From NCBI RefSeq assembly GCF_030623445.1, contig NZ_CP130613.1, forward strand, positions 2,418,001 to 2,482,000: DNA of 64,000 bases. Direction: 5' to 3'. Every line of letters begins with the position of its first letter. The first letter of the stretch is position 1. The notes below the pieces were generated by a model. The model did no database searches and was not told the origin of the DNA. It saw only the letters and a list, made by a program, of their open reading frames with translations. Below, in pieces: positions 7,905-26,290 of this stretch. The translations under genes were made by a program, and so were the position numbers. The stretch is from Pseudogemmatithrix spongiicola (lineage in GTDB: Bacteria; Gemmatimonadota; Gemmatimonadetes; Gemmatimonadales; Gemmatimonadaceae).

Positions 7905-8867
7905 ATGCGCCGCCTGCTGAGCCTGCTGCTTCTCTGTTCGGTCACCGGACTTGCCCGCACCGTTGCCGCGCAGGCGCCGGGACCGGCGCGCCCGGCCACC
8001 CTCGGTCTCCAGGCCAACATCACCTTCCTCTACTACCGCGACATCCCGCGCGCGCAGCGCTTCTATGAGGACGTGCTTGGACTCACGCTCACGGTGGATC
8101 AGGGCTACTCCAAGATCTACCGCGTCTCCCCGACGTCGTACGTCGGCCTCGTGGACGAGTCGCAGGGCTTACACCGCGCCGCACCGCAGAAGCCCGTGAC
8201 GCTGAGCTTCGTGACGGCCGAGGTGGACCAGTGGTACGCGTACCTGCGCGGCCGCGGCGTGGAGATGGTGCACGAGCTCGCCGACGGCCGCCGGCAGCCC
8301 ACGCGTGGCTTCGTGGCCAAGGATCCCGAGGGCTACTATCTCGAGTTCGAGACCTTCCGCGACGACCCGCAGAACGCGACCATCCGGCCGCAGCTGGCGC
8401 TGTCCCCCGGCGGTGGCCTGCAGCGCGACGCGACGCTCTACGTGGAAGACTTCCTCAAGCGCTACCTCGGCCAGTTCGACGCCTCGCGGGAGCATCCCGA
8501 AGGCTGGAACCCGCTCACGGTGCTGCGTGACGACCTCTCGCCGACGCTGATGCGTGCGCTCCAGGAGGACCGCGATGCGGCCGTGGCCAACGACGAGGAG
8601 ATTGTTGGGCTCGACTTCGATCCGTTCATCAATGCCCAGGACGTCTGCGACGGGATGGAATCGCGTGCGGCCGTCGCGACTGACACCACGATGGACGTTG
8701 CGGTGTATGACCGCTGCGACTGGGGACACCCGCTGGTTCCGGACGTGATCTACGTGTTGCAGCGTCGCGGCAACCGTTGGATCATTGCCGACATCCGCTA
8801 CGCGGGCGGCCAGTCGCTCCTCGAAGTCCTCGCCTACTACGCCGAACAACGGAAGCAACCCCAATGA
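7905..8867 (+). CDS. Secreted VOC-domain protein fused to a DUF3828-like domain
   Basis: 320 residues from the ATG at 7905, with a signal peptide (MRRLLSLLLLCSVTGLART..AQA). Residues about 30-155 form a vicinal-oxygen-chelate/glyoxalase-type fold: ITFLYYRDIPRAQRFYEDVLGL and later AKDPEGYYLEFETF. The rest begins FLKRYLGQFDAS and contains GLDFDPFINAQDVCDGM and GNRWIIADIRY, typical of the periplasmic DUF3828 family. The combination of the two domains is unusual. An in-frame upstream ATG at 7878 is possible. The stop overlaps the ATG of the SIMPL gene. Confidence 0.8.
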   Translation: MRRLLSLLLLCSVTGLARTVAAQAPGPARPATLGLQANITFLYYRDIPRAQRFYEDVLGLTLTVDQGYSKIYRVSPTSYVGLVDESQGLHRAAPQKPVTLSFVTAEVDQWYAYLRGRGVEMVHELADGRRQPTRGFVAKDPEGYYLEFETFRDDPQNATIRPQLALSPGGGLQRDATLYVEDFLKRYLGQFDASREHPEGWNPLTVLRDDLSPTLMRALQEDRDAAVANDEEIVGLDFDPFINAQDVCDGMESRAAVATDTTMDVAVYDRCDWGHPLVPDVIYVLQRRGNRWIIADIRYAGGQSLLEVLAYYAEQRKQPQ

Positions 8868-18455: not shown

Positions 18456-19307
18456 ATGCCCCTGACCAGACTCCTGCCCTTCCTCGCCATCTCGACCCTC
18501 GCAGCCCTTCCGCTCAGCGCGCAGCAATCGGCGCAGTCGATCGCCGACCTGCTCAAGCGCCCCGCCGACCCGGCGCGCATGATCGGCAGCGGAGAGACCA
18601 AGACCGGCGCGCTCGCCGACGCCAGCCTGCGGCTCGACGACAGCAGCCGCGTGGAGCTCTGGTACTTCCGCGGCACGGCGGGCCAACGCGTGACCGTGCG
18701 GCAGCGCTCGGAGGACTTCGACACCTTCGTCCATGTGGGGCGGCAAGGCGGCGACGAGCCCGACGTCCAGAATGACGACGCCGACGACGACGGCGTGAAC
18801 TCCGCCGCCGAGCTCACGCTGCCGAGCGATGGCGTCTATGTGATCATCGCGAATGCCTTCGACGGCGACGGGCGCGGCGCGTACACCATCGCGCTCGAGA
18901 TCCGCGACCCCGCACCGGGAATGTCCGGCCCCGCCACGCCCGCCACGGTGACCTTGCGCGAAGCGGAGCCGGCGCAGCGCCTCGCACTCGGCCAGCGCTT
19001 CGGCTCGCAGATCGATCCGCGCGATCCGACCATGGACGACGGCACGCCCTTCGAGCTGTGGTTCGTCACGGTCGCCGCAGGCGACACCCTGCACTTCGCG
19101 GTGCAGAGCGACGAGTTCCCCCCGGCTATCCATGTCGGCCGTCAGGGCAGCGGCAGCATCTACGCCGAAGCCTCTGACGCCGCGCGCGCCGCCGTGCGGT
19201 TCATCGCGCAGGAGAGCGGCATGTACTCCGTCATCGTCCGCAGCACCCGCGGGACGGCGACGGGCAGCTACATCCTCGAGCTCAGCAAGGCGTCGGCGCC
19301 GCGCTGA
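18456..19307 (+). CDS. Secreted protein with two PPC-like domains
   Basis: 283 residues, signal peptide ending ALPLSAQ. Two copies of a pre-peptidase C-terminal (PPC) beta-sandwich: the first holds RVELWYFRGTAGQRVTVRQRSEDFDTFVHVGRQGG and GVYVIIANAFDGDGRGAYTIALE, the second FELWFVTVAAGDTLHFAVQSDEF, GRQGSGS and GMYSVIVRSTRGTATGSYILEL. An Asp-rich stretch (QNDDADDDG) could bind calcium. No protease domain is attached, so the domains stand alone. Similar in build to the protein at 40666-42132. Periplasmic or extracellular, role unknown. Confidence 0.85.
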   Translation: MPLTRLLPFLAISTLAALPLSAQQSAQSIADLLKRPADPARMIGSGETKTGALADASLRLDDSSRVELWYFRGTAGQRVTVRQRSEDFDTFVHVGRQGGDEPDVQNDDADDDGVNSAAELTLPSDGVYVIIANAFDGDGRGAYTIALEIRDPAPGMSGPATPATVTLREAEPAQRLALGQRFGSQIDPRDPTMDDGTPFELWFVTVAAGDTLHFAVQSDEFPPAIHVGRQGSGSIYAEASDAARAAVRFIAQESGMYSVIVRSTRGTATGSYILELSKASAPR

Positions 19308-23122: not shown

Positions 23123-26100
23123 GTGCTGCACACCCTCCGCGTCCTGCTGGCCCTCGGGCCCTTCGTCATTTCCATCCTCCGCGACCAGCGCCGTTGGCTC
23201 TGGTTCGGCGCGCCGCTCCTGCGCAGCCCGGAGTTCCACGCGCGGCGCGCCCGCGCGTTGGTCGCCCGCATCGCGAAGCTCGGCCCGACCTTCGTGAAGC
23301 TGGCACAGGTCTTCGCGGCCCGCGCGGACCTCATTCCCGAGCCCTACCTCTCACAACTCGGTACGCTCACCGACCGCGTGCCGCCCGTGCCGTGGGATGC
23401 CATCGAGCGGGAACTGCGCTCCGCCTATGGCGAGGCCCCCGAGCGCACGTTCACGAGCATCGATCGCAGCCCGATCGCCGCCGCCTCGCTCGGACAGGTG
23501 CATCGCGCCACGTGGCGCGGCCGCGATGTTGCGGTCAAGGTGCTGCGCCCCGGGGTCGAGCACACCGTCGAACGCGACCTGCGCTCGGCGCGCGCCATCA
23601 CCGCCTGGGCCGCCCGCCGCTGGCCCGTGCCGCACGTGCTTGGCTTCCAGTCGCTGGTCGAGGAGTTCGCCACGCGCATCGCGGAAGAGATGGACTTCCG
23701 CCTCGAGGCCGAGTACGCCACCGAAGTGCGCGGCAACTTCCGTGGCAACCCCCGCGTGGTGATCCCCGAGGTCATGCACGAGCTCACCCGCCGCCGCGTG
23801 CTCGTGCTCGCGTTCATCGACGGGCGCCGCGTCGATCGCCTGCCCGCGGGTTCCGTGGACGCGCAGCGCCTCGCCGCGCTCGTGATGGAGGTCTACGTGC
23901 AGATGATGCTCGTGGACGGGCTGTTCCACGCGGACCCGCACGCGGGCAACCTGCTCTTCACGGCCGACGGCCGCCTCGTGCTGCTCGACTTCGGCATGAT
24001 GGTACGCGTCCCGCAGGAGACGCGGCTCGCGCTCATTCGCACGGTGTTCGCGTCGATCCGCCGGGATCCCGTCGCCGTCGCCGACGGCTTCACTGCGCTC
24101 GGCCTCGTCGCACCAGGTGCCGACCCGGCCGAGATCCGCCGCCTCGCCGGCATCCTCGTCGAGCTCAGCGTGCAGCGCACCACGACGCAGCAGCGGCTCG
24201 AGACCATGCTCGCCGACCGCGTCATGGCCTCGCTCTACGACTTCCCCGTCATCCTGCCGCGCGACCTCGTGTACTTCGCGCGCACGGCGGCGCTCATCGA
24301 AGGCATCGGCACACGCTACGACCCGTACTTCAATGCCATCCAGGTCGGCACGCCGCTGGTGATGCGCATGCGCAGCCGCATCTTGAAGTCGCTGGGGCAG
24401 GAGGCGGAGCCGAGCGTCGAGGAGTATGCGGCGATGGCGGGCTGGGCGGTGGGGCGCGCGTGGCGTCGCGTGCGCGAGGTGGTCCGGCCCCTGCTGTCTG
24501 GGCTCGCGTTGTGCCTTGGGCTGGGCGCGGCTACTGCACTGCAGGCACAGACGAGTGACTCCCTCGAGGCGCGCATCGCCGCTGCGGTGCAGCGGGAAGG
24601 CCTCATCGGCGTGTCGTGGAGCCTCCTCCGCGACGACAGCGTTCGCCTCGGTGCGGCCGGCACCCGCGACGTGCGCAGTGGCGCGGTGCTGAGTCCAGAG
24701 TCGCGCATGCAAGTGGGATCGGTCGCCAAGACCGTCACCGCACTCGGTGTGCTCCGACTCGTCTCGCAAGGACGCCTCGACCTCGACGCCGAGGTTTCGA
24801 CGTTGCTTGACGCACCGCGAATCGAGAATCCGTTCGCGGCGTCGAGTCCGCTGCGTGTCCGCCACCTGCTCGATCACAGCGCTGGCTTGGACGATGCGCG
24901 GCTCTGGCAGGTATTCACGATGCGCGGAGATGCATCGAGACCATTGGGCGAGGGTCTGCCCGCTCGCCTGACGCTGCGCACGCCGCCGGGGCGGCAGATG
25001 TCGTACTCGAACACGGGCTACCTGCTCGCCGGCATGGTCATCGAGCGCGTGACCGGCTCGCCGTACGAGGCCTGGCTCGACAGCGCGGTGCTCGCCCCGC
25101 TCGGGATGACACGCAGCACCACGCGGTTCGTCACGCAGGCCGACGACTCGACGTTGGCGATGGGCCACTTCGACCTCAGCACCGTCGCGCCGACCGTCGC
25201 GTTTCCCGTACGCCCGGCGATCCAACTGACGACCACCGCCGAGGACATGGCGCGCCTCGCACGATTCCTGGTCTCGGATGGCCGCATCGGCGACTCCGTC
25301 TTCGTGGATGCTGCGCTGCTGCAGGCGATGGCACGCGCCAGCACCACGGATGCTGCTCGTGCCGGGCTCGGCGTGGGCTATGCGCTTGGACTCCTGCGCC
25401 GTGATCGTTACGGAGCCGTCGGCCATTGCCACCTGGGGAACCAGGGAAACTTCCGCGCGGTCCTCTGCGTGTACCCGCAGCAGCAGCGCGCGATGTTTGC
25501 GTCGTACAACAGCGACCCGGAGAGCGGGAACTTCGCCGCCGTTGACTCCCTGCTCGTCGACGCGCTGGACGTCTCGGCATCAGGCTCCCCCGCAGCGGCA
25601 GTCACGAACGCGACGCTGCGCGCGCTCGACGGCTGGTATGAGGTCACGCCGGCGCGCTTTCAGCAGTTCGCGTACCTCGACGCGCTGGCGTCCGCGGTGC
25701 GGGTTACCGCTATCGGTGACAGCGCGTTGACCTTCGCGCCGCTTGGCGGGACCGCGCGCCACCTTACCGCCGCGGGATCCGACCGCTTCCGCGCCACGGG
25801 CCGCAGCGAGGCGTCGCACGTCGTCATCCGCAATGCTGAAGGCAACACCGTGATCTCGGATGGCACCCAGACCTTCGCCCGTGTCTCCGCGGGGCGCCTG
25901 TACCTTCGCTGGACGTCTGCCGGACTTGGCATCTTTGCGCTGCTGACCATTCTCGCGCGCGGAACGTGGCGCGGACTGCGCGCGATCCGGCATCGCGCAG
26001 CGGGCGCCGACCCGCTGCGATACGCAACCATCGGCATCGCGCTGCTCTTGCTCGCGCCGGTCGCCTATCTCTTCACAGATGCGATGGCCATTGGCGACCC

Positions 26101-26290
26101 GACCTTCGCCAACCTAGGCGTAGCCGCGGCCACGCTGCTGCTGCCCATCAGCCTGCTCGCGAGTCTCGCCGCCATCATCGGTCGCGGCACGGCAGGTCGG
26201 CGCGTGGACCTCGTACTGCTAGTACTCGCCACACAATGGTGCACCGTGCTGGCCGCGAACGGCTTCCTGCCGCTCATGCTGTGGCGCTAG
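23123..26290 (+). CDS. Fusion: UbiB/ABC1-type kinase + beta-lactamase-like serine hydrolase + C-terminal membrane region
   Basis: 1055 residues from a GTG at 23123. Residues 1-440 are a UbiB-type atypical kinase: KLAQ (59-62, usually KxGQ), Ala-rich loop with SLGQVHRA (122-129), VAVKV (137-141), HADPHAGN (269-276), LDFG (288-291). After residue 452 comes VVRPLLSGLALCLGLGAATALQAQ, which looks exactly like a signal peptide. Then a class-C beta-lactamase/penicillin-binding fold with S533-x-x-K536, Y628-S-N and GHCHLGNQG, and finally about four membrane spans (from about residue 925). There is no stop between the parts. An internal GTG at 24479 could start the hydrolase separately. Known UbiB proteins help make quinones or move lipids; the hydrolase substrate is unknown. 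Confidence 0.85.
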   Translation: MLHTLRVLLALGPFVISILRDQRRWLWFGAPLLRSPEFHARRARALVARIAKLGPTFVKLAQVFAARADLIPEPYLSQLGTLTDRVPPVPWDAIERELRSAYGEAPERTFTSIDRSPIAAASLGQVHRATWRGRDVAVKVLRPGVEHTVERDLRSARAITAWAARRWPVPHVLGFQSLVEEFATRIAEEMDFRLEAEYATEVRGNFRGNPRVVIPEVMHELTRRRVLVLAFIDGRRVDRLPAGSVDAQRLAALVMEVYVQMMLVDGLFHADPHAGNLLFTADGRLVLLDFGMMVRVPQETRLALIRTVFASIRRDPVAVADGFTALGLVAPGADPAEIRRLAGILVELSVQRTTTQQRLETMLADRVMASLYDFPVILPRDLVYFARTAALIEGIGTRYDPYFNAIQVGTPLVMRMRSRILKSLGQEAEPSVEEYAAMAGWAVGRAWRRVREVVRPLLSGLALCLGLGAATALQAQTSDSLEARIAAAVQREGLIGVSWSLLRDDSVRLGAAGTRDVRSGAVLSPESRMQVGSVAKTVTALGVLRLVSQGRLDLDAEVSTLLDAPRIENPFAASSPLRVRHLLDHSAGLDDARLWQVFTMRGDASRPLGEGLPARLTLRTPPGRQMSYSNTGYLLAGMVIERVTGSPYEAWLDSAVLAPLGMTRSTTRFVTQADDSTLAMGHFDLSTVAPTVAFPVRPAIQLTTTAEDMARLARFLVSDGRIGDSVFVDAALLQAMARASTTDAARAGLGVGYALGLLRRDRYGAVGHCHLGNQGNFRAVLCVYPQQQRAMFASYNSDPESGNFAAVDSLLVDALDVSASGSPAAAVTNATLRALDGWYEVTPARFQQFAYLDALASAVRVTAIGDSALTFAPLGGTARHLTAAGSDRFRATGRSEASHVVIRNAEGNTVISDGTQTFARVSAGRLYLRWTSAGLGIFALLTILARGTWRGLRAIRHRAAGADPLRYATIGIALLLLAPVAYLFTDAMAIGDPTFANLGVAAATLLLPISLLASLAAIIGRGTAGRRVDLVLLVLATQWCTVLAANGFLPLMLWR

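Follow-up and report, generated by a model that had tools for sequence, protein, structure and literature searches.

A UbiB-type kinase joined in frame to a serine hydrolase by a lineage-specific insertion in Pseudogemmatithrix spongiicola, within a recurrent pattern of UbiB fusions in its family

The window analysed here, a stretch of 64,000 nucleotides from Pseudogemmatithrix spongiicola (family Gemmatimonadaceae; contig NZ_CP130613.1), contains a single open reading frame on the forward strand (23123-26290, in positions of the window) that joins an ABC1/UbiB kinase-like protein to a serine hydrolase. This frame runs from a GTG start to a TAG stop, encodes 1055 amino acids and has no stop codon between the two parts. 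Residues 82-319 match Pfam family PF03109 (ABC1/UbiB kinase-like; E 7.1e-66, 222.3 bits against a gathering threshold of 22.9), and residues 482-805 match PF00144 (Beta-lactamase/S12; E 1.5e-48, 166.1 bits against a threshold of 27). Together with the motif positions given below, these matches bear out an earlier note, which had read both enzymes in this one frame. The G+C content is 69%, and long open frames are common at that composition; a chance overlap with a spurious frame is nevertheless excluded because there is homology on both sides and an empty site in a relative. In the following, G000 is the window's own genome, G and L numbers denote genomes and loci, and g13 and g20 are genera of the family.

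The kinase part (residues 1-452; 23123..24478, forward strand) is of the UbiB type without C-terminal hairpin; its identity is supported by PF03109, same-genus orthologs and the ratio of nonsynonymous to synonymous substitution rates (dN/dS). The motifs of the ABC1/UbiB superfamily are an Ala-rich loop (AAAS), HADPH and DFG, and all three were found, as AAAS at residues 119-122, HADPHAGN at 269-276 and LDFG at 288-291, with SLGQVHRA at 122-129. The UbiB type family has the motif KxGQ, in place of which the kinase part has KLAQ (residues 59-62; 23297..23308, forward strand). The earlier note had pointed to this difference, which is not odd for the group: of 28 aligned UbiB rows, one of the 28 being from outside the family, 26 have KxAQ and two have KxGQ. 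The nearest NCBIfam model is the UbiB equivalog TIGR01982. With known UbiB/COQ8 proteins (E. coli UbiB, COQ8A) the kinase part thus shares PF03109 and an alignment to TIGR01982 over profile positions 47-427, and its solved relatives include 5yjz, 7cy2 and 4ped. It differs from them in scoring 301.4 bits against the equivalog cut-off of 487.55, in having KLAQ for KxGQ and in lacking the C-terminal hydrophobic stretches, which lie in E. coli UbiB at 501-519 (hydropathy 1.78) and, more weakly, at 524-542 (1.26). The genome itself is a single contig of 3.26 Mb with completeness given as 100; it has one strong PF03109 match (226.5 bits) and seven further ones of 20-27 bits each.

The serine hydrolase with its four C-terminal hydrophobic stretches occupies 24548..26290 (forward strand). 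Its motifs are SxxK (SVAK, residues 533-536; 24719..24730), YSN (residues 628-630; 25004..25012) and, as a third one not listed in the earlier note, HxG (HLG, residues 770-772; 25430..25438), all on the forward strand; the Ser and Lys of the first, the whole of the second and the His and Gly of the third are invariant in 13 aligned rows. In NCBIfam the hydrolase part comes closest to AmpH and further serine hydrolases but scores far below their cut-offs, and it falls outside the class C beta-lactamases as defined by NF033085 (35.3 bits against a cut-off of 415). An AlphaFold model of residues 414-1055 has a mean predicted local distance difference test score (pLDDT) of 77.3, and Foldseek matched the modelled hydrolase to Pab87, Lip3, SurE, IS11 and full-length ClbP in the PDB (2qmi, 9sn1, 6ksu, 7spn, 7mdc). 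With these proteins, of which ClbP is membrane-tailed, it shares SxxK, YSN and HxG, but identity is 18-24% and the hydrolase here has four C-terminal hydrophobic stretches. Hydropathy over 19 residues places the latter at 926-944, 972-990, 1001-1019 and 1031-1049, in agreement with the roughly four membrane spans that had been proposed for this end of the protein.

Between the two enzymes lies a signal-peptide-like segment (residues 453-475; 24479..24547, forward strand) with a basic flank ahead of it. The 19-residue hydropathy reaches 1.68 at residues 457-475, the net charge ahead is +4, and stand-alone orthologs of the hydrolase have a similar start, which upholds the earlier reading of this segment as signal-peptide-like. 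Hydropathy alone is no proof of a span, because the same scale also flags residues 1-19 (1.99) and residues 250-268 within the kinase (1.68). The first of these (23123-23179) is hydrophobic in relatives of both UbiB types as well and might be an N-terminal membrane contact. The basic loops appear to be placed as expected with the catalytic part outside. The topology suggested in the earlier note, with the kinase inside and the hydrolase outside, would fit this sequence evidence and receives indirect support from the other UbiB-exported frames of the family described below.

Orthologs of the kinase were found in 10 of the 16 other genomes of the genus, with 75-86% identity. Nine of them stop on their own, 15 to 47 residues beyond query residue 440, and no hydrolase was found adjoining these nine; the tenth, in G006, continues for 203 residues beyond this point into another exported protein. 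Nei-Gojobori distances among three sequences give a dN/dS of the kinase part of 0.18 on the G000 branch and 0.17 on the branch of its unfused sister G005, so the G000 kinase is under purifying selection at about the sister's rate. The other six genomes (G001, G002, G004, G009, G012 and G013; 1.8-2.5 Mb, 71-100% estimated completeness) gave no UbiB at 1e-90. This absence may track small genomes, yet G011 (2.3 Mb) has UbiB and some of the six are incomplete.

The empty site is found in G008, where positions 8443-8641 of locus L043 match window 24281-24479 and positions from 8644 onward match the window from 26273 onward, with two nucleotides in between. Relative to this site the insert occupies 24480..26272 (forward strand); on the right it could extend by as much as another 18 nt, because similarity there is weak at first. 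In this comparison 1,793 bp took the place of 2 bp, a net gain of 1,791 nt or 3 x 597. DNA similarity of the kinase to its two nearest relatives, G005 and G008, ends at window base 24479. At third codon positions the G+C content of the hydrolase is 0.82, whereas the kinase has 0.925 and six neighbouring genes have 0.86-0.93, a difference that would suit a newcomer. In G005 a permease-type gene lies beside the kinase, as in the window, and within 19 kb of that kinase there is neither the hydrolase nor the photolyase-like gene. Near the same G005 locus (L042:15788-19001) several relatives, about 30% identical, of the window protein 18456-19307 stand in a row.

If the joint were an accidental frame fusion, close relatives might be expected to have two adjoining genes with a stop codon in between, as the earlier note had pointed out. 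No such pair was found: the relatives have a kinase with its own stop, and no hydrolase was found adjoining it, so that, with the empty site, the fusion came about by insertion and not through a lost stop between old neighbours. On the sequences compared, the hydrolase fusion is an insertion specific to the G000 lineage among the relatives read. A tblastn search over 38 loci (flanks of up to 1.5 kb) found the hydrolase adjoining UbiB only in the window's own loci. A candidate second hydrolase fusion, G042:C210, was rejected: its match up to residue 549 runs through a stop codon, the kinase terminates 54 residues after the end of its alignment, and there is no hydrolase match there.

The hydrolase was found at 1e-60 in 13 of 179 family genomes, G000 included; the copies from other genomes are 41-56% identical to that of G000. 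In all 12 of these genomes it stands in a separate frame of 430-785 amino acids, which leaves no room for UbiB; in G024 it is split over two frames, and at L024 its start is lost at a contig edge. Stand-alone hydrolases with a readable start open, as judged by eye, with a signal-peptide-like stretch, whose length varies with the choice of start codon from 21 to 50 residues. When kinase and hydrolase rows were aligned together with the full chain, the hydrolase rows came out at 17-26% identity, against 41-56% otherwise; this result was taken as misaligned and left unused.

To place this fusion among the UbiB proteins of the family, 93 of 105 UbiB places (90 + 3) were read; 12 stand outside the count, one of which (G053) was read only to the contig end. 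In eleven of the 93 loci the kinase frame stays open for more than 120 residues beyond the aligned part and takes in a hydrophobic segment followed by an exported-type domain; the passengers are of five kinds. In G000 the passenger is the hydrolase and in G006 a SnoaL-like domain (Pfam E 0.009, under the cut-off), seven species of genus g20 carry one common passenger, and G116 (L097) and G125 (L094), both of g20, carry two different ones behind lipobox-like Cys sequences. That these five differ was judged from tblastn among four of them, the hydrolase standing outside that comparison.

The common passenger is a conserved exported-type domain of about 175 residues, seen at L081:838-1365 (reverse strand) and 16 further loci, downstream of or fused to UbiB, in two genera. 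It has a confident model (pLDDT 91.3); it matched no Pfam or NCBIfam family and no PDB entry by Foldseek at E 0.001 or better, and its best VIA-align Z was 3.7, although its fold is not thereby shown to be new. As a separate downstream match it occurs in eight g13 loci and three g20 loci, and SnoaL-like genes lie downstream of UbiB in G011 and G014. From these separate copies in relatives we conclude that the passenger of the seven species and of G006 is an old neighbour, whereas that of G000 is a newcomer. At one of the eight g13 loci, the UbiB-neighbour domain of G190 (L085:771-1289, reverse strand) has an in-frame stop. The linkers of the seven species are 26, 27 and 28 codons long, in frame every time, and in the close pair L081/L082 five of seven linker changes, a small number, fall on third codon positions.

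In a tree of 110 rows the fused label needs six changes, five of which are forced by well-supported branches. Fused rows sit among UbiBs without the C-terminal pair of spans, and the 18 rows with the pair are found on one side of a branch; within g20 fused and unfused rows are interleaved. The tree is a quick one: its only support values are Shimodaira-Hasegawa-like approximate likelihood ratios (SH-aLRT), the rows used for rooting do not make up one side of a branch, and two of its end branches are long. Its rows from outside the family had been chosen for long frames, as had 17 of the 20 outside regions of that set. A further 20 outside regions were picked by hand without selection for frame length; one of them, G238, repeats a locus that had been covered before. 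The hairpin is present in 11 of these 20 and missing from nine. We rejected the explanation that the hairpin was simply lost inside the family, because families elsewhere in the order and class (f2, f8) have both UbiB types. Both types also have an N-terminal hydrophobic stretch, which makes it less likely that the fusion stands in for a missing anchor; the median 17-residue hydropathy of this stretch is 1.46 in hairpin, 1.66 in short and 1.50 in fused proteins.

As controls we used PurD and a cystathionine gamma-synthase-like enzyme, with matches in 158 and 167, respectively, of the same 179 genomes. The best 19 listed places of the first and the best 20 of the second, by frame length, were read, while seven of the second (510-532 amino acids) and the unlisted places were left out. 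None of these 39 longest listed frames has a C-terminal tail of more than 22 amino acids, their extra length lying upstream.

Taken together, we think it reasonably probable that one chain is made, with the kinase in the cytoplasm and the hydrolase in the periplasm, perhaps cut by signal peptidase, and that it is one case of a recurrent joining. At codon 453 of the one strong UbiB-type match in the genome, the whole coding sequence of a hydrolase, reaching from the start codon roughly as far as the stop, was inserted in frame, as the empty site in G008 shows. As the sequence has no stop between the two parts, ribosomes completing the kinase must run on into the hydrolase. The signal peptide of the hydrolase may then act as an internal signal, so that the kinase stays in the cytoplasm and the hydrolase is exported to the periplasm, where the four C-terminal spans would hold it at the membrane; hydropathy, charge and the stand-alone orthologs are consistent with both steps. 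Chances are about even between a chain that stays whole and a cut by signal peptidase behind the segment, after which the kinase would end in a new membrane tail and the hydrolase would be a protein by itself. Additional hydrolase may start at an internal ATG (24434). G000 would then be one instance of a recurring process in which UbiB genes of the family that lack the hairpin have become joined to exported-type partners of five different kinds.

Several observations weigh against this interpretation. The hydrolase fusion is seen in one genome only, and the AlphaFold model has low confidence over the joint, with block means of 29-52 for its first 60 residues. By eye, the LQA before Gln in G000 is a poor signal peptidase site with Leu at -3, the ATA just ahead being an alternative. 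Among the 11 fused tails, scores of the hydrophobic segment range from 1.21 to 2.24, with L089 and L097 below 1.4, and hydropathy alone does not separate fused tails, because 12 of 76 unfused tails of the family also reach 1.6; calling the fused tails signal-peptide-like therefore rests partly on reading by eye. Two proteins could also be made from the one frame, the hydrolase mainly from an internal start and the read-through chain being a minor or useless by-product, which we regard as improbable. The in-frame ATG (24434..24436, forward strand) has GAGGAG upstream (duplex with the anti-Shine-Dalgarno sequence -8.2 kcal/mol). Translation from there, 15 codons upstream of the GTG that marks the insertion point, would produce a leader of 38 residues, Arg-rich at its beginning. 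GAGGAG, though, is kinase coding sequence for the Glu-Glu of VEEYA, and three of the 32 internal ATG/GTG codons of the kinase pair still more strongly by chance. The GTG (24479..24481, forward strand; 23-residue leader), which the earlier note had proposed as a second start, does mark the insertion point, where the kinase DNA homology ends, and is probably the hydrolase's old start codon; it has almost no Shine-Dalgarno pairing (-1.4 kcal/mol). In the seven-species group the neighbour's ATG and a Shine-Dalgarno-like site are kept in seven of seven, so that a joined chain and a separate exported product may both be made there. On the other side, each completed kinase carries the hydrolase for want of a stop. 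Furthermore, the G006 locus (L071) has no ATG, GTG or TTG ahead of the signal core, and in G116 the sole such codon is a GTG 18 codons before it, so that in these two the exported part would hardly be made except via UbiB, barring a rare start such as CTG. G000 may belong either with these two or with the seven species.

The joining itself could also be neutral: the chain, once cut by signal peptidase, would yield the same two working products as in the relatives, so that nothing is gained, and a recurrent fusion could come from stop codons lost where an exported gene lies close by. This appears rather unlikely, though less so than two independently started proteins, and it overlaps with the one-chain interpretation, so that the two probabilities need not sum to one. 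A strict AxA site ahead of the exported domain in five of the seven fusions with the same passenger (by eye; L089 and L093 differ), the about unchanged rates of the kinase and the interleaving of fused and unfused rows in g20 would all suit it. Against it stand the fused frame found in seven species with linkers differing by whole codons, and the absence of such tails from the control genes read, although the control consists of two genes only, which have other neighbours than UbiB. A sequencing or assembly error joining two genes is very improbable. The fusion is indeed seen in one genome only, and a single wrong base at the joint would be enough to separate the two frames, with stops in the alternative frames at 24556-24558 and 24690-24692. 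Such an error would, however, need to hit the boundary itself, since kinase homology runs to 24479 and the hydrolase frame starts there; moreover, the genome is one contig with completeness 100, and fused UbiB frames occur in other assemblies too, seven of them with one passenger. Fusion therefore looks recurrent in the family, as far as sequences can tell, rather than a slip of sequencing.

The earlier note knew of no such arrangement among described UbiB proteins, and for bacteria this stands: no bacterial UbiB-hydrolase fusion was found in the literature searched, among the matches listed. It does not stand for plants, in which At5g24810 of Arabidopsis and LOC_Os06g48770 of rice are described as having ABC1 N-terminal to a serine beta-lactamase domain and are predicted to be mitochondrial (PMC1560137, in the parts consulted). 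A 2005 survey of prokaryotic kinase architectures names Usp and RIO1 as partners for ABC1 and, in the passages covered, no hydrolase (PMC1262709). The domain order ABC1 then beta-lactamase is therefore not new, and the present chain shares it with the plant proteins as far as these are described there; it differs from them in that they are predicted mitochondrial, whereas in the bacterium the joint consists of a signal-peptide segment that a single lineage gained by insertion. Of the relatives read, G000 alone has this insertion, a point that would favour an origin separate from that of the plant fusions.

Receptor kinases of the PknB/PrkC type have a cytoplasmic N-terminal kinase, one span and an outside domain tied to cell wall chemistry. 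The chain proposed here would resemble them in having an N-terminal cytoplasmic kinase, a span and an outside domain, but it belongs to another kinase family, and its outside part looks like a complete enzyme with more spans.

To our knowledge, the role of UbiB-family proteins at membranes is still unsettled. A tentative generalisation, to which we give somewhat less than an even chance, is that hairpin-less UbiB kinases of the family repeatedly become membrane-spanning by taking over, from a gene that lies next to theirs or was inserted there, both its signal peptide and its exported product. Their periplasmic domains would thereby change (serine hydrolase, conserved domain, SnoaL-like domain and two lipoprotein-like segments), and the products would be either receptor-like chains or precursors, with a signal peptidase site taking over the role of the stop codon. 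The case in the window is a lineage-specific in-frame insertion within a recurrent pattern, and this pattern merits experiments more than the single case does. If true, it would provide a natural example of a cytoplasmic enzyme that ends in a signal peptide, and the natural series of UbiB proteins with different periplasmic partners would offer ready pairs for asking whether the kinase acts across the membrane, which partner is concerned and whether the anchor matters.

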